Notes under the pieces: generated by a model | Database searches by the model: none | The model's input: only the letters and a program-made list of their open reading frames with translations | What the model was told of the DNA's origin: nothing | From: Saprospiraceae bacterium | GTDB taxonomy: Bacteria; Bacteroidota; Bacteroidia; Chitinophagales; Saprospiraceae | NCBI GenBank assembly: GCA_020629515.1 | Contig: JAHDDE010000007.1 | Span: 1 to 64,000 of the forward strand | Length of the DNA: 64,000 nucleotides | Direction: 5' to 3' | Shown: positions 13,939 through 20,399 of the stretch, piece by piece | Layout of the letters: each line of letters starts with the position of its first letter | Position numbering within the stretch: the stretch's first letter is position 1 | Position numbers and translations under genes: made by a program

Positions 13939-14011
13939 ATTAAATAGTATCTAAATAAGGATACGTCATTTGGATAGCATAACCATCTATGTTATAATCC
14001 TTAAAGGTTAC

Positions 14012-14019
14012 TATCTTTG
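14012..14019 (+). promoter_or_regulatory. Bacteroidota-type -7 element of the nqr operon
   Basis: TATCTTTG, followed by TGGC, is a full match to TAnnTTTG. It lies 28 bp before the ATG at 14048 and downstream of the possible TTG start at 13970, so it argues that nqrA translation begins at 14048. A -33 TTG at the usual spacing is not evident. Confidence 0.55.
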
Positions 14020-14047: not shown

Positions 14048-15688
14048 ATGCAAGATAAACGCACTTTTTTTCCCTCTTTCTTAAGCATTATGGGTGTATT
14101 GTTAGTTTCAAGCCCATTATCTGCCCAGGGAGCAGAATCGAGTAACAACGTTACAGTAATAGCAATTTTAATCATCATAGGAGCGCTGATATTAGTTAGC
14201 GCGATATTAACCTTAAGCCAAAATTTTATCTCATTAGAGGCACAGAAAATTGGTGTTGATATTGATGACGAGACATCGGATAACCCTATCACAAAATTAT
14301 GGAAGAGTCCTGCACCGAGTTTTACTAAGGGGTCTACATTAGTAGAATTAGATAAAGGTCATGACATCTTACTAAAAGGGTCTGCTGCTAAAACAATCGT
14401 AGATGCTAAAGCAACAAGGTATGCCGTTAAACCGCAAGACTATAGAGGTATGTCGCCGATACCAAAAGTTTTAGTAGCTGTAGGGGATGAAGTAAAAGCA
14501 GGGCAACCGCTATTGATTGATAAGAAGAACGATAGAGTTAAGCATGTATCTCCAGTATCCGGAGAAGTCATAGAAGTGAAAAGAGGAGAAAAAAGATCTA
14601 TTGCTGAGGTTATAATATTGGCTGATAAAGAGATTAAATATCATCAGTATGAACCACCAAGTATCTCTGAAGCTTCACGAGAGGACATTGTTGAGTTCCT
14701 ACTAAATTCTGGAGGGTGGACTTTGCTCAACCAGAGGCCGCACGATATTATGCCAAGCCCAGAAGATGTTCCGGCTAATATCTTCATAAGTACATTTGAT
14801 ACTGCACCACTTGCTCCAGATTATAGCATTATAATTGAAGGTAGAGAAGATGCTTTTCAAAAAGGTTTGGATACATTGAACAGATTGACAACAGGCAATG
14901 TTTGCTTAGGCCTTGATGCTAACGGAGACAAAGCTCCTCATGCTGGATACACCGAGGCTACAGGAGTCAATAAGAGATGGTTTAAAGGGAAACACCCAAG
15001 TGGAAATGTAGGTATTCAGATCCATCATACTGCACCTATTAAGCCTGGCATGAAAGTTTGGACTTTAGGAGTTCAAGAGGTTATTGCATTAGGAGACTTG
15101 ATGCATAAGGGTATTTTTAACGCTGAGAAAGTAGTTGCTTTAGGAGGAAACAATGTTGTAAATCCAACTCATATTAGAACATATGCGGGAGCCAACATTG
15201 GAGAATTAGTAAAAGAAAATATAGTTGGAGACAACTTCAGAATTGTCGATGGTGATGTACTTAGCGGAAAACAAAGCTCCTTAGAAGGATTTTTGTCGGC
15301 CAAGTCGGATCAAATAAGTGTAATTGAGGAGGGGGATTATTATGAGATATTTGGATGGTTGCTACCTATAACTCCGAGGCCTACGATTTCTAAGACCTTT
15401 CCAAACTTCTTGTATCCCAACATGGAGTTCGAAGCAAATACCAACACCCATGGAGAAAGAAGAGCATTTGTGGTTAGTGGTCAATATGAGAAAGTGTTGC
15501 CGATGAAAATATATCCTCAACATTTGATGAAGGCTATCATGACCGGAGATTTTGAACAAATGGAAGGATTGGGTATTTATGAACTATCAGAAGAAGATGT
15601 TGCGCTATGCGAATTTGTATGTACGTCTAAAGTGCCTTTGCAAAGTATCTTGAGGGATGGTTTAGAAATGATAAGAGAACAAAGTTAA
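14048..15688 (+). CDS. nqrA: Na+-translocating NADH:quinone reductase subunit A, with N-terminal membrane extension
   Basis: I start at the ATG at 14048 (546 residues) rather than the TTG at 13970, because a good promoter element lies between them. NqrA proper begins near residue 98 (LVELDKGHDILLKGSA) and covers about 450 residues, including the barrel-like ISPVSGEV-type segment (HVSPVSGEVIEVKRG) and NVGIQIHHTAPI. Before it lies an extra region of about 97 residues: a signal-like segment ending SPLSAQG, a hydrophobic helix at about 36-57, and a polar linker. Known NqrA subunits are about 446 residues, cytoplasmic and soluble, held to the complex through NqrB; here the subunit would be tethered by its own helix. 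It is the first gene of nqrABCDEF, 27 bp before nqrB. Confidence 0.9.
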   Translation: MQDKRTFFPSFLSIMGVLLVSSPLSAQGAESSNNVTVIAILIIIGALILVSAILTLSQNFISLEAQKIGVDIDDETSDNPITKLWKSPAPSFTKGSTLVELDKGHDILLKGSAAKTIVDAKATRYAVKPQDYRGMSPIPKVLVAVGDEVKAGQPLLIDKKNDRVKHVSPVSGEVIEVKRGEKRSIAEVIILADKEIKYHQYEPPSISEASREDIVEFLLNSGGWTLLNQRPHDIMPSPEDVPANIFISTFDTAPLAPDYSIIIEGREDAFQKGLDTLNRLTTGNVCLGLDANGDKAPHAGYTEATGVNKRWFKGKHPSGNVGIQIHHTAPIKPGMKVWTLGVQEVIALGDLMHKGIFNAEKVVALGGNNVVNPTHIRTYAGANIGELVKENIVGDNFRIVDGDVLSGKQSSLEGFLSAKSDQISVIEEGDYYEIFGWLLPITPRPTISKTFPNFLYPNMEFEANTNTHGERRAFVVSGQYEKVLPMKIYPQHLMKAIMTGDFEQMEGLGIYELSEEDVALCEFVCTSKVPLQSILRDGLEMIREQS

Positions 15689-15715
15689 ATAGAATAAAAG
15701 TCAGAAAGACTAATT

Positions 15716-16960
15716 ATGGGTTTAATCGATATTTTTAAAAAGATAGAGCCAGACAAAAAGAAGAGTCCTATTCTTCATACATTGTTTGACGCTGTTTTCA
15801 CTTTTGCAGCTACACCTAACGAAACTACAAAAGGTGGGGTTCATATCAGAGACGGTATGGATTTGAAAAGGACAATGGTCCATGTTGTATTAGCAATGCA
15901 ACTTTGTTTTTTATTTGGAACTTATAACATCGGCCATCAGCATTTCAGTGCTATGGGACAATATGTTGGATTCATTGAAGGGTTTCATTTGAAGCTAGCA
16001 CATGGTTTAATTAAATTATTGCCACTTTTTATAGTTTCAAATGTGGTTGGATTAGGGATAGAGATATGGTACGCCTCTAAAAAAGGTCATGCTGTTGAAG
16101 AAGGTTATCTTGTATCTGGAGCATTGATTCCATTGATTATGCCACCAGATTTGCCTTTATGGATTTTGGTCTTATCAATTTTCTTTGCAGTGATTTTGGT
16201 CAAAGAAGCATTTGGTGGGACTGGTATGAATATTTGGAATGTGGCATTAATGGCACGTTTATTCGTGTTCTTCGCCTATCCAACAACCATATCGGGAGAT
16301 GATGTATGGGTATCTGGATTTGACCATATTCGTACTGGTTACGAAGCCAATTATGGTTGGGCTCATGGCTTGTTCAATGGTCTTTTCGGATGGATGGGAT
16401 TAGATACATTCACTGGAGGCCAAGTCGTTGATGGATTTACAGGTGCCACACCTTTAGCTCTGGCTTATCAGGGAGGATGGGAGGCTGTAACCAATGTTTA
16501 CTCGGTGTCAGAAATGTGGTGGGGAACCATACCAGGATCTATTGGTGAGACTTGTAAGCCATTTATCTTATTTGGAGCGATATTTTTGGCTGTAACAGGT
16601 ATTGCAAGTTGGAGAATCATGCTAAGTATGATCGTTGGAGCCGCTTTAATGGGTATGATATTGAATGCTTGGGATGCCACACCATTTATGGATGTACCTT
16701 GGTATTATCAATTCTACATGGGTAGTTTCTTTTTTGCGATGGCGTTTATGGCTACCGATCCAGTAACAGCAGCGTCGACTAATGCTGGAAAGATCGCATA
16801 TGGATTCCTTATAGGTTTTATCGGAATGATCGTTAGAGTGCTCAATCCTGCATATCCAGAGGGTTGGATGCTCGCTATTATATTCATGAATACTTTCGCT
16901 CCATTATTGGATAGATTGGTATTGAATGCTCACATGTCAAAAAGATTAGCAAGTGCGTAG
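15716..16960 (+). CDS. nqrB: Na+-translocating NADH:quinone reductase subunit B
   Basis: 414 residues, the usual length, with about ten membrane helices. It carries the flavinylation motif DGFTGATPLA; the FMN-linked threonine should be Thr245, matching the covalent FMN site of characterised NqrB proteins. NqrB holds a quinone-binding site and forms part of the sodium pathway in the cytoplasmic membrane. The N-terminal cytosolic part (about 1-55) is where NqrA docks in known structures. The stop overlaps the GTG start of nqrC by 8 bp, indicating coupled translation. The flavin transferase ApbE needed to attach FMN is not encoded in the window. Confidence 0.95.
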   Translation: MGLIDIFKKIEPDKKKSPILHTLFDAVFTFAATPNETTKGGVHIRDGMDLKRTMVHVVLAMQLCFLFGTYNIGHQHFSAMGQYVGFIEGFHLKLAHGLIKLLPLFIVSNVVGLGIEIWYASKKGHAVEEGYLVSGALIPLIMPPDLPLWILVLSIFFAVILVKEAFGGTGMNIWNVALMARLFVFFAYPTTISGDDVWVSGFDHIRTGYEANYGWAHGLFNGLFGWMGLDTFTGGQVVDGFTGATPLALAYQGGWEAVTNVYSVSEMWWGTIPGSIGETCKPFILFGAIFLAVTGIASWRIMLSMIVGAALMGMILNAWDATPFMDVPWYYQFYMGSFFFAMAFMATDPVTAASTNAGKIAYGFLIGFIGMIVRVLNPAYPEGWMLAIIFMNTFAPLLDRLVLNAHMSKRLASA

Positions 16961-17705
16961 TAATAATTATGTAATCGGTTTTGTTGTGACTATGACTATT
17001 GTCGTTGCATTAGTCTTGTCATTACTAGCAACGGGCTTAAAGCCTATTCACGATAAAAATGAAGCAATATTCAACAAGAAGGCTATTCTTGCAGCAATAG
17101 AGACAGAATTGGGGGATAATGTTAAGGCAGATAAAATGCCAGATGAGGAAGTGCTTAAAATCTTTGATAATAATATTACTCAAACAGTGATAGATATTAA
17201 TGGAGAAGAAGTCACGGCTGAGTTTATCGAGTCTCGTGGTTATAAGGGAGGACAGGCTGAAAATATTGATATGAAGAAAGAAAAGAAGCGTGAAGTTGAT
17301 GATCGTATCTTTCCAGTATTCATTTACGAAAATTCAGGTGAAAAATTCTTTATTGTTTCCATTAGAGGTAATGGTCTATGGGATGAGATCTGGGGCAACA
17401 TAGCCCTGAAGGATGATTTTAAAACTATAGTAGGAGCATCTTTTGACCATCAAGGAGAGACACCAGGATTAGGTGCGGAGATCAAAGACAACCCCGCTTT
17501 CAAAAAACAGTTTGCTGGTAAAAGTATATATGATGCCACAGGTAATTATACTTCAGTAGTTGTAAGAAAAGGTGGCGCCAGAAATGATAAGTATGAAGTA
17601 GATGGTATATCTGGAGCAACTGTTACTTGCGATGGTGTATCTGACATGCTTTATGATGGGATCAAATATTATGAGCCTTACTTCAAATCACAGAAAAAAT
17701 CTTAA
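16953..17705 (+). CDS. nqrC: Na+-translocating NADH:quinone reductase subunit C
   Basis: 250 residues with one N-terminal membrane helix (about 8-28) and a periplasmic FMN-binding domain. The flavinylation motif DGISGATVT is at about 218-225, with Thr223 in the SGAT box as the expected FMN attachment point. The GTG start at 16953 overlaps the end of nqrB; the next in-frame ATG would cut into the membrane helix, so GTG is preferred. A 20-residue charged insert (MKKEKKREVDDR) precedes the FMN domain, as in other members. nqrD follows after 2 bp. Confidence 0.93.
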   Translation: MRSNNYVIGFVVTMTIVVALVLSLLATGLKPIHDKNEAIFNKKAILAAIETELGDNVKADKMPDEEVLKIFDNNITQTVIDINGEEVTAEFIESRGYKGGQAENIDMKKEKKREVDDRIFPVFIYENSGEKFFIVSIRGNGLWDEIWGNIALKDDFKTIVGASFDHQGETPGLGAEIKDNPAFKKQFAGKSIYDATGNYTSVVVRKGGARNDKYEVDGISGATVTCDGVSDMLYDGIKYYEPYFKSQKKS

Positions 17706-17707
17706 GA

Positions 17708-18421
17708 ATGGCTGAAACTACAGTTCAAAAGAAAGAATCAGCATTTGCATTTGGCAAAAAAGAGAGAGCACTCCTCACGGATCCTCTTAACGATAATAAC
17801 CCTATAACCGTTCAGGTTCTTGGTATTTGTAGTGCATTGGCCGTCACGACATTATTATTTCCTTCTATAATAATGGCAATAGCGGTTGTATTTGTTTGTG
17901 CATTTTCAAATCTGTTTACTTCATTATTGAGAAAATCTATACCTAAACAGGTTAGGATGATTGTTCAATTAGTGATCATTGCCACATTGGTAACAGTCGT
18001 GGAGTTATCCTTAAAAGCATTAGATTATCCTACCTATAAGCAGTTATCTGTATTTATTGGGTTAATTATTACTAACTGTATAGTAATGGGTAGGTTAGAA
18101 GCTTTTGCTATGGCTAATAGCCCTTGGAAGTCTTTTTTAGATGGAGTGGGTAATGGTGTTGGCTATGGAGTTATTCTTATCGCTGTAGCATTATTTAGAG
18201 AGGTGCTTGGAAAGGGAACTTTTCTTGCTGGAACTCCGTGGGAATGGAAAATTATTGGACCTACTGCAGAATACACCATCAACACATTGGCAGATGGATC
18301 TTGGTTTGGTTGGTATCAAAATAATAACCTAATGGTTCTACCAGCGGCTGCCATGTTTCTTATTGCAATAATGATCTGGATACATAGATCTTGGAATCCT
18401 AAATTAGTAGATATCTCATAA
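17708..18421 (+). CDS. nqrD: Na+-translocating NADH:quinone reductase subunit D
   Basis: 237 residues, about six membrane helices, with the family motifs GLIITNCIVMGRLEAFAM and SFLDGVGNGVGYG. NqrD and NqrE are homologous, inverted membrane subunits; in known complexes a cluster of cysteines from the two holds an iron centre inside the membrane, and the cysteine of ITNCIVMGR is present here. It follows nqrC by 2 bp and precedes nqrE by 12 bp. The N-terminal tail of about 30 residues is slightly longer and more polar than average. Confidence 0.95.
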   Translation: MAETTVQKKESAFAFGKKERALLTDPLNDNNPITVQVLGICSALAVTTLLFPSIIMAIAVVFVCAFSNLFTSLLRKSIPKQVRMIVQLVIIATLVTVVELSLKALDYPTYKQLSVFIGLIITNCIVMGRLEAFAMANSPWKSFLDGVGNGVGYGVILIAVALFREVLGKGTFLAGTPWEWKIIGPTAEYTINTLADGSWFGWYQNNNLMVLPAAAMFLIAIMIWIHRSWNPKLVDIS

Positions 18422-18433
18422 AAAATATAAGCT

Positions 18434-19033
18434 GTGGAATTAGTAAACGTATTTATCAAGGCGGCATTTATAGAGAACTTAGTTCTTTCCTATTTCTTAG
18501 GAATGTGTTCTTTTTTAGCTGTTTCCAAGACACTAAAAACGGCATTTGGTTTGGGATTGGCGGTTATATTCGTCTTGTTCGTAACCATGCCGATTAATTG
18601 GCTCATTAGCACTTACCTGTTGGACGAAGGAGGTTTATTTGGGATGGATTTAACCTTTCTGAGGTTTATTTTATTTATCGCTGTGATAGCTTCAATGGTT
18701 CAATTAGTTGAGATGGTGATTGAAAAATATTCTCCTTCGTTATACAACTCTTTGGGTATTTTCTTACCATTAATTACCGTGAATTGCGCTATACTGGGAG
18801 GGTCGTTATTCATGGTATCTCGAGAGTATACTTTCGGAGAATCTGTGGCTTTTGGTTTAGGTGGTGGATTTGGATGGTTCTTAGCTATAGTAGCTTTAGC
18901 AGCGATTAGAGAAAAAATTAAGTATAGTAATGTTCCTGCCCCATTAAGAGGGTTGGGTATGGCATTCTTGCTGACTGGTTTGATGGGTATGGCTTTTTTA
19001 AGTCTACTTGGTATTGATCCAGCGTCATTTTAA
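18434..19033 (+). CDS. nqrE: Na+-translocating NADH:quinone reductase subunit E
   Basis: 199 residues with six membrane helices and the hallmark segments [19 protein letters not shown] near the start and [11 protein letters not shown] in the middle; the cysteines of these two motifs would pair with those of NqrD around the intramembrane iron. The start is GTG at 18434, immediately giving [16 protein letters not shown], which matches the family's N-terminus. 58 bp separate it from nqrF. Confidence 0.95.
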
Positions 19034-19091
19034 TTTAAGTAATAGAAGTTTTGTTTTATAAAGATTGTATAGGACGATAAAGAAATAATCA

Positions 19092-20399
19092 ATGATAACT
19101 TCAATAATTACGGCAATAGCAATTTTTACAGCGGTGATCTTAGGATTGTCGTTCATGTTGATGTATGCCAATAAAAAATTAGTACCACAAGGTGATGTGA
19201 GTATAGTGGTTAATGGAGATGCTGAGAACCCACTTAAGGTTAAGCCAGGGGCATCGCTATTATCAGTTCTATCTGATCAAAATGTGTTTTTACCGTCTGC
19301 ATGTGGTGGAGGAGGCACATGTGCGATGTGCGAATGCCATGTAGACAGCGGTGGAGGAGATGTGTTGCCAACAGAGATGAATCACCTTACACGAAAAGAG
19401 GCAGCTGAGAATAAAAGATTGGCGTGCCAAGTGAAAGTGCGTGAGAATATGGAGATACGAGTACCTGAAGAGGTATTTGGAATTAAAAAGTGGGAGTGTG
19501 AAGTAATTTCAAATTACAATGTGGCGACGTTTATAAAAGAGTTTATAGTCAAGTTGCCGGAAGGAGAAACGTTAGATTTTCAAGCTGGAGGATATATACA
19601 AGTTGACGTTCCGGAATGTGAGGTAGACTATGGTAAGGATATTGATATTACAGCACATCCTAACTATCATGACTCTCCTGATAAGTTTCAGAAGGATTGG
19701 GATAAATTTAAGTTATGGGATCTAAAGATGAAGAACGAGGAGCAGGTATTCAGAGCGTACTCTATGTCTAATCACCCTGCTGAAGGAAACATTGTGTCAT
19801 TGACAATCAGAATAGCTACTCCACCTTTTGACAGAGTTAAGGGTGGGTGGATGGATGTGAATCCTGGTATTTGTTCTTCTTACGTATTTAGTCGAAAACC
19901 AGGCGATAAGGTTACTATTTCTGGTCCATATGGAGAGTTCTTCATCAAGGAGACTCAATCAGAGATGCTATATATTGGGGGAGGAGCTGGAATGGCACCG
20001 ATGAGATCTCATTTGTATCATTTATTCCATACTTTGAAGACGGGTAGAAAAGTTACTTTCTTTTACGGAGGAAGAACAAAGCAAGAATTGTTTTACATAG
20101 AAGAATTCAGAGAGATAGAGAAGCAGTTCCCTAATTTCAGATTTGCAGTAGCGCTGGATAATCCATTACCAGAAGATAATTGGGTACTCAAGAAGGATCT
20201 GGATGACCCAGAGGGCGATGGATTTAAAGGATATGTACATCAAGTGGTGATAGATGAATTCTTAAGTAAGCATCCTGAACCGGAAGAATTAGAATTATAT
20301 TTCTGTGGGCCTCCAATTATGAATCAATGTGTACTAACAATGGCAGATGAATGGGGTATTCCAGAAGAGAATGTAGCATTTGATGATTTCGGAGGATAA
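19092..20399 (+). CDS. nqrF: Na+-translocating NADH:quinone reductase subunit F (NADH-oxidising)
   Basis: 435 residues. One membrane helix (about 4-25), a 2Fe-2S ferredoxin domain with Cys71, Cys77, Cys80 and Cys112, an FAD domain with RAYSMSNHP, and an NADH domain with IGGGAGMAPMRSH and the C-terminal CGPPIMN. It takes electrons from NADH and passes them through FAD and the iron-sulfur centre into the membrane subunits. It is the last gene of the operon and is followed by a strong terminator. It is about 28 residues longer than the Vibrio protein; the extra sequence is spread through the FAD domain near the aspartate-rich DKFQKDWDKF segment. Confidence 0.95.
   Translation: MITSIITAIAIFTAVILGLSFMLMYANKKLVPQGDVSIVVNGDAENPLKVKPGASLLSVLSDQNVFLPSACGGGGTCAMCECHVDSGGGDVLPTEMNHLTRKEAAENKRLACQVKVRENMEIRVPEEVFGIKKWECEVISNYNVATFIKEFIVKLPEGETLDFQAGGYIQVDVPECEVDYGKDIDITAHPNYHDSPDKFQKDWDKFKLWDLKMKNEEQVFRAYSMSNHPAEGNIVSLTIRIATPPFDRVKGGWMDVNPGICSSYVFSRKPGDKVTISGPYGEFFIKETQSEMLYIGGGAGMAPMRSHLYHLFHTLKTGRKVTFFYGGRTKQELFYIEEFREIEKQFPNFRFAVALDNPLPEDNWVLKKDLDDPEGDGFKGYVHQVVIDEFLSKHPEPEELELYFCGPPIMNQCVLTMADEWGIPEENVAFDDFGG

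Follow-up and report, generated by a model that had tools for sequence, protein, structure and literature searches.

What does a membrane anchor do on NqrA, a subunit that is described without one? In the available portions of PMC9325719, PMC10643135 and PMC4014512, NqrA has no transmembrane helix and is held by NqrB. The nqrA gene studied here lies in a stretch of 64,000 nucleotides from a Saprospiraceae bacterium (the window; contig JAHDDE010000007.1). Its product departs from the usual, though not defining, form of about 446 amino acids. It consists of 546 amino acids, with 98 residues ahead of the core and a transmembrane helix at residues 36-57. We analyzed whether this extension is real, who carries it, how it might sit in the membrane and what it could contribute to the complex.

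According to the part available of PMC12174285, no direct function can be assigned to NqrA. The accessible part of an ApbE review (PMC12052999) is silent on an NqrA anchor. Titles and abstract beginnings of the open-licence literature gave no report of an NqrA extension, anchor or signal peptide, or of a Saprospiraceae case.

The nqrA gene, its start codon and its promoter

The nqrA frame read in the window opens with ATG 14048 and ends at 15688 (+ strand). It is the first gene of a complete nqrABCDEF operon (14048-20399, +). For each gene, the best match is the Nqr model of that subunit, and the score exceeds the TIGR cut-off (Table 1). The best-scoring NCBIfam models for nqrB (407 of 414) and nqrC (203.9 of 329) stay under their own cut-offs. 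RnfC is the homologue of NqrA in Rnf, and the rnfC model gives 37.2 bits on the window NqrA, far below its cut-off of 245.95. Two side observations concern the operon. The nqrD gene starts about 12-13 residues ahead of the nqrD models (17708-17755; the match runs from residue 17, at model position 4-5). PF04400 (NqrM) was matched in none of 30 genomes (the window's own and 29 relatives), and no control genome matched it either.

Table 1. Features of the window's nqr locus, with the evidence for each.
Feature	Coordinates	Strand	Evidence
-7 promoter box TATCTTTG, Bacteroidota type	14012..14019	+	read directly; ATG 14048 is 28 nt downstream
Predicted signal peptide, residues 1-26 (MQDKRTFFPSFLSIMGVLLVSSPLSA)	14048..14125	+	A26 in 115/131 and Q27 in 118/131 aligned rows
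Predicted mature N-terminus Q27 and short periplasmic tail, residues 27-35	14126..14152	+	Q-rule, alignments
Transmembrane helix, residues 36-57	14153..14218	+	mean Kyte-Doolittle of best 19-mer 3.11
Juxtamembrane motif, residues 56-71	14213..14260	+	column counts in 145 rows
Cytoplasmic polar linker (predicted side), residues 58-98 (41 residues), including most of the juxtamembrane motif	14219..14341	+	P80 128/135, P90 112/139
NqrA core, residues 99-546 and stop codon	14342..15688	+	PF05896, PF24836, PF11973; TIGR01936, NF003761; 7xk3_A, 8a1u_A
nqrB	15716..16960	+	TIGR01937 371.5 bits, cut-off 349.9
nqrC	16953..17705	+	TIGR01938 175.8 bits, cut-off 144
nqrD	17708..18421	+	TIGR01939 264.3 bits, cut-off 244.85
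nqrE	18434..19033	+	TIGR01940 288.7 bits, cut-off 247.55
nqrF	19092..20399	+	TIGR01941 557.4 bits, cut-off 295

Alignments of the frame to the NqrA models and to NqrA chains of known structure begin at residues 94-101. More precisely, NF003761 begins at residue 99 (486.7 bits, cut-off 450), TIGR01936 at residue 101 (428.8 bits, cut-off 321.05), and the alignment with V. cholerae NqrA (446 aa, 7xk3_A) also begins at residue 99. These alignments to curated models and structures leave 98 residues before a complete core, close to the 97 or so estimated from the letters alone. In residues 1-135, the in-frame ATG, GTG and TTG codons are ATG 1, ATG 15, TTG 18 and ATG 135. Residues 19-134 present none. 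Translation therefore cannot begin at the usual NqrA position with these codons, and a protein beginning near residue 98, a finding that would tell against the extension, has no such codon near it.

The start at 14048 agrees with the promoter. The Bacteroidota -7 box has the consensus TAnnTTTG. As the sequence-only reading noted, a box of this type precedes the start. The word TATCTTTG is identical in the five aligned upstream regions (window, L122-L125). As a bare word, it occurs in the window at chance level (4 observed, 4.9 expected). The general form TAnnTTTG is found 215-420 nt ahead of the core in 131 of the 142 loci with the extension, a count made without L188 and without loci having less than 330 nt upstream of the core. 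In 200 base shuffles the mean was 18.8 and the largest value 29. In 17 loci without a signal peptide, the box lies nearer the core, at 217-294 nt compared with 330 nt in the window, which fits the later start of those genes. An upstream TTG at 13970 is an unlikely start, because it lies upstream of the box. In a good number of relatives, such as L012, L027, L085, L095 and L125, the extension seemingly starts with TTG, a feature that may lead automatic annotation to leave out the signal peptide.

The length of NqrA elsewhere, about 446 aa, could suggest that the true start is at the core and that the upstream frame is open by chance. Three points speak against this: the long run without start codons, an in-frame extension in 145 of the 154 family genes read, and the purifying selection on the helix described below. 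The sequence already rules this reading out, unless an unusual start codon is used around residue 98, and its probability is negligible. A mis-called start is likewise ruled out by the missing start codons, the conservation and the promoter.

Architecture and conservation of the extension

The limits of the segments rest on hydropathy, the A-Q site and conservation. The conservation counts refer to 145 aligned extensions (the family rows plus L123 and L125), a set that differs from the 145 extension-bearing genes. The stretch SPLSAQG, first proposed as the end of a signal-like segment, occupies residues 22-28, and the predicted signal peptide closes with LSA immediately before Q27. The site presents the hallmarks of the signal peptidase I Q-rule: an h-region, a small residue at -1 and Q at +1. 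In the aligned extensions, A26 and Q27 are the most conserved feature of the first 35 residues. Glutamine at +1 is a mark of signal peptidase I substrates in Bacteroidetes, as stated in the available part of PMC5837995. Part of the conservation of Q is thus a proteome-wide habit of the phylum, which inflates the Q count.

The hydrophobic helix at about residues 36-57 is confirmed by hydropathy. An AlphaFold2 model built from 5 sequences, of low confidence (mean pLDDT 43.8) and consulted only for its two helices, places a helix at 35-65.

A conserved motif follows directly. Its family majority is V-x-D-N-L-L-x-I-E-A-K-x-x-G-x-D, and the window reads L-S-Q-N-F-I-S-L-E-A-Q-K-I-G-V-D. The window differs from the majority at six positions, L56, Q58, F60, I61, L63 and Q66 (majority V, D, L, L, I and K). 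It retains N59, E64, A65, G69 and D71, together with P80 and P90 of the linker. The column counts after the helix are D58 104/142, N59 102/141, E64 116/141, A65 123/142, G69 127/141 and D71 86/137.

We compared the regions of the gene in six pairs made from four sequences (window, L122, L123 and L124). With pS near saturation, only the contrast between regions was used. The helix shows pN 0.10-0.20 versus pS 0.68-1.06, which indicates purifying selection at the sequence level. The core has pN 0.19-0.24 and the linker 0.36-0.45. The signal peptide evolves fast (pN 0.40-0.56, pS 0.55-0.91), and the L122/L123 pair presents no purifying signal in it (pN 0.55, pS 0.55).

Distribution of the extension

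The window's family is Saprospiraceae by its named relatives; four loci are labelled Saprospirales/Saprospiraceae or unplaced Bacteroidetes. NqrA scored over the cut-off in 174 of its 199 genomes, and 154 genes were read. Among them, 117 have a signal peptide with Q, 10 a signal peptide without Q, and 17 the helix without a signal peptide. One more is cut by a contig end and is counted among the 145 with the extension. The remaining 9 have no extension. The survey covers one phylum, in which many genomes are incomplete, and the class labels of L004, L021, L075, L086, L092, L097, L177, L179 and L180 were set by eye. L028 and L030 exceed the cut-off, begin inside the core and are left uncounted.

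The 17 orthologues without a signal peptide are not uniform. Twelve keep EA[KQ] of the motif after the helix. In L120 and L178 the motif is absent and the sequence has two hydrophobic stretches. A frameshift in the assembly may account for L176. The nine genes without the extension form two kinds. L087 and L162-L165 sit inside the extension clade in the tree, and L163-L165 retain an apparent linker end. In contrast, L074, L075, L076 and L079 (f1 genomes G450, G548, G526 and G527) encode an NqrA of usual length that groups with rows of f33, another family of the phylum. In these genomes, nqrA was likely replaced by transfer.

Across the phylum, 70 of 392 genomes at least 90% complete had NqrA over the cut-off. 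Six of the 70 are members of the window's family and have NqrA frames of 544-577 aa; the other 64 are from outside it. Of these 64, 30 genes were read (L044-L073): none has the extension, and all start at the usual place. One of them, L056, has a 580-aa frame in G379, with an ATG four codons before the core. The other 34 genes outside the family are known by frame length only (at most 495 aa).

In the order outside the family, NqrA passed the cut-off in 35 genomes, and 5 of the 23 genes read carry the extension. Ten of these genomes have frames of 503-581 aa (coded families f5, f10, f13, f76 and f77). The five read (L004, L013, L023, L107 and L112, none from f77) all have a signal peptide, Q and helix. 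The other 25 genomes have frames of 446-495 aa, and the 18 read start at the usual place. A side observation concerns L101 (G644, same order, f77, 78% complete). Its NqrA groups with f31 rows of another class, at odds with the longer frames of four other f77 genomes, known by frame length. It may be a transfer or assembly contamination.

On these sequences, the extension marks a clade: 145 of 154 in the family, 5 of 23 in the rest of the order and 0 of 30 in the rest of the phylum. Close relatives carry the extension; their lacking it would have told against the proposal. Nevertheless, 9 of 154 family genes and 18 of 23 genes from other families of the order, among those read, do without it. 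It is therefore dispensable for NQR in general.

Origin of the extension

In a tree of 131 rows (one row per distinct core, fragments dropped), the extension appears in two places and its presence needs 5 changes. We then picked 49 rows, after the result of the 131-row tree was seen. In this set, holding the extension rows and the in-clade losses together was not rejected (p-AU 0.645), and the likelihood was 8.4 above the free search. By eye, the four outlying extension rows share the pattern of transmembrane helix, juxtamembrane residues and prolines. Since the constraint is not rejected and the outlying rows share this pattern, a single gain in the order followed by losses is the favoured, though unproven, history.

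A donor was sought with profiles, and none was found in the class or in the own genome. Used alone as a query, the extension matched 13 of 296 phylum genomes at E <=0.01. Six of these matches fall in nqrA genes of the family to which the window belongs; the remaining seven (E 5.7e-4 to 0.0086) look, on reading, like unrelated frames. In the class, the extension profile matched 35 of 247 genomes at E <=0.01. Three of these matches were nqrA, and the strongest of the rest was a CcoP-like frame in G228 (E 1.2e-5). Among the 20 of 46 first-look candidates scored in the own genome, nqrA was the sole match. Pfam scans of 41 extensions gave scattered weak matches (best E 3.2e-5, MAP17, 3 members), and the window's own extension gave none. 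A PDB profile search returned only MAP17 chains and one designed protein, at E 0.01 or worse.

CcoP (cbb3 oxidase; Pfam FixP_N) and small Bacteroidota proteins that we presume to be CcmD-like resemble the window NqrA: a signal peptide mostly ending in AQ, a short tail and a transmembrane helix. In both, the part after the helix lies in the cytoplasm. In hhalign, CcoP and the extension align over the signal peptide only (26 columns, probability 94), and the match does not continue beyond it. The CcmD-like proteins align over signal peptide and helix, without the juxtamembrane motif (47 columns, probability 93.6). The match between the CcoP-like and CcmD-like proteins likewise rests on the signal peptide. 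Because the comparisons cover only these segments, capture of the N-terminus from CcoP or a CcmD-like protein is unproven at the sequence level, and no shared origin is shown. As a side observation, the CcoP-like cytochromes L129, L131, L132, L145 and L146-L161 mostly begin with a signal peptide (AQ), a short tail and a transmembrane helix. This arrangement is perhaps a recurrent way to an N-out/C-in topology in the phylum's respiratory proteins.

Topology and the proposed mechanism

Charged residues were counted on both sides of the helix. The 15 residues after it contain on average 1.81 K/R (77 proteins), and the segment between Q and the helix contains 0.08 (71 proteins). These counts leave out L188, and L233 was scored by eye as having no Q site. 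In the 17 proteins without a signal peptide, the mean is 0 before the helix and 1.59 after it, although in L120 and L178 the 15 residues that follow it contain none. The predicted periplasmic tail has a median of about 9 residues (range 1-13 in the 71 proteins scored). The K/R bias and the forms without a signal peptide point to a tail outside and a core inside.

We propose that in Saprospirales NqrA is synthesized as a membrane protein with a signal peptide, which would start translocation and be cut off by signal peptidase I before Q27. The helix at residues 36-57 would stop transfer. The mature protein would then cross the membrane once, leaving about 9 residues outside and keeping the entire core cytoplasmic. 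Tethering by an own helix, and a mature N-terminus facing the periplasm after cleavage, are thus supported by the sequence pattern of the clade. The fate of the new terminus is a further matter. PF05096 (glutaminyl cyclase), which covers one of the cyclase types, was unmatched in the own genome and matched in 3 control genomes.

If the signal segment stayed uncleaved, it would form a two-helix hairpin with the next helix. Both ends would be cytoplasmic, and two helices would hold NqrA. Only about 9 residues separate the two segments, Q at +1 is missing in 10 of 127 signal-peptide-bearing family genes, and the two hydrophobic stretches of L120 and L178 have no clear AQ site. These points suit a hairpin. 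However, a small residue plus Q is the most conserved N-terminal feature, as in the phylum's signal peptidase I substrates (PMC5837995, available part), and the n/h region, unlike the helix, evolves fast. We consider the hairpin unlikely. With or without cleavage of the signal peptide, the core would be cytoplasmic, on the side where it has to meet NqrB and NqrF.

The sequence-only reading had also offered a periplasmic partner recruited by the tail. The mature N-terminus would indeed face the periplasm. Nevertheless, only about 9 variable residues would lie outside, with almost no K/R, and the tail is missing in the 17 orthologues without a signal peptide. This makes such a partner highly improbable. 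Conservation is concentrated in the helix and in the residues that follow it on the cytoplasmic side. This favours a partner, if any, within the membrane or at its inner face. What survives of that reading is the clade-wide signal peptide and transmembrane helix, and the start with its -7 box; the periplasmic partner does not.

Contacts retained by the core

The window NqrA shares with the described proteins (TIGR01936, NF003761; V. cholerae 7xk3 and 8a1u) the whole core, its three Pfam domains and the nqrABCDEF operon. It also shares the membrane-contact loop and three of the five NqrF-docking residues. In V. cholerae NqrA, a C-terminal loop around FGW is interlaced with the N-terminus of NqrB, and NqrF docks on a basic patch (R40, K61, K62, K84, R85) in the N-terminal domain (PMC9325719, part available). 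The [FLYIM]GWxxP loop is present in 73 of 74 extension rows versus 50 of 57 others, and W437 is invariant in 45 rows. The docking patch is kept in part. K61 and K84 correspond to K159 and K182 (each in at least 90% of the 45 rows), and R85 to the invariant R183. R40 is replaced by S136. The counterpart of K62 is K160 in the window, conserved in less than 90% of the 45 rows. NqrB N-termini were extracted at 77 loci (51 with the extension, 26 without), and 39 viewed by eye showed no obvious extension-linked difference. The conservation of the loop and of three docking residues makes the helix look like an added anchor on a core that would still be cytoplasmic.

The helix and the residues just after it would be a second, covalent membrane attachment, beside the contact of the NqrA loop with the NqrB N-terminus. 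Most likely, the helix holds the NqrA/NqrF head in place on the complex and contributes to targeting or assembly, because it joins the N-terminal domain, where V. cholerae NqrA binds NqrF. A stabilising effect on the complex is possible. Taken as a whole, a cleaved signal peptide, a single-span anchor, a cytoplasmic core and a head held on the complex is our preferred reading, with a probability of about 0.8.

The extension could instead be chiefly a targeting device, by which NqrA is made next to NqrB and the helix has little later role. This is compatible with the preferred reading. The NqrB contact loop is kept, which leaves no obvious need for a permanent extra anchor, and the extension was lost inside the clade (L087, L162-L165). 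On the other side, the residues after the helix are conserved, and most orthologues without a signal peptide keep EA[KQ]. We regard a role mainly in targeting as rather doubtful. A more specific idea goes beyond the anchor. The helix and the juxtamembrane motif might be a dedicated docking module that binds NqrB, NqrC, NqrF or a neighbouring respiratory complex, and thereby fixes the NqrA/NqrF head. We advance it tentatively, with less than even odds.

Significance

Single-helix anchors exist in this complex. NqrF and NqrC, like the window NqrA in our reading, are hydrophilic subunits held by a single transmembrane helix, and the evolutionary gain of an anchor has been argued for NqrF (PMC4014512, available part). 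The NqrA anchor differs from theirs: in most cases it comes after a signal peptide that looks cleavable, it has a motif of its own, and it is restricted to a narrow clade.

The Q-rule paper, in its available part, leaves pyroglutamate in inner-membrane proteins to be tested (PMC5837995). If cleavage occurs as proposed, NqrA would be an inner-membrane protein obeying the Q-rule. If the docking module is real, the Saprospirales Na+-NQR would be structurally distinct, and NqrA would have a role that it lacks elsewhere. An anchored NqrA in one lineage offers a natural test of the role of a poorly understood subunit. The anchored lineage, its unanchored sister lineages, the forms without a signal peptide and the losses inside the clade together make up this natural experiment.
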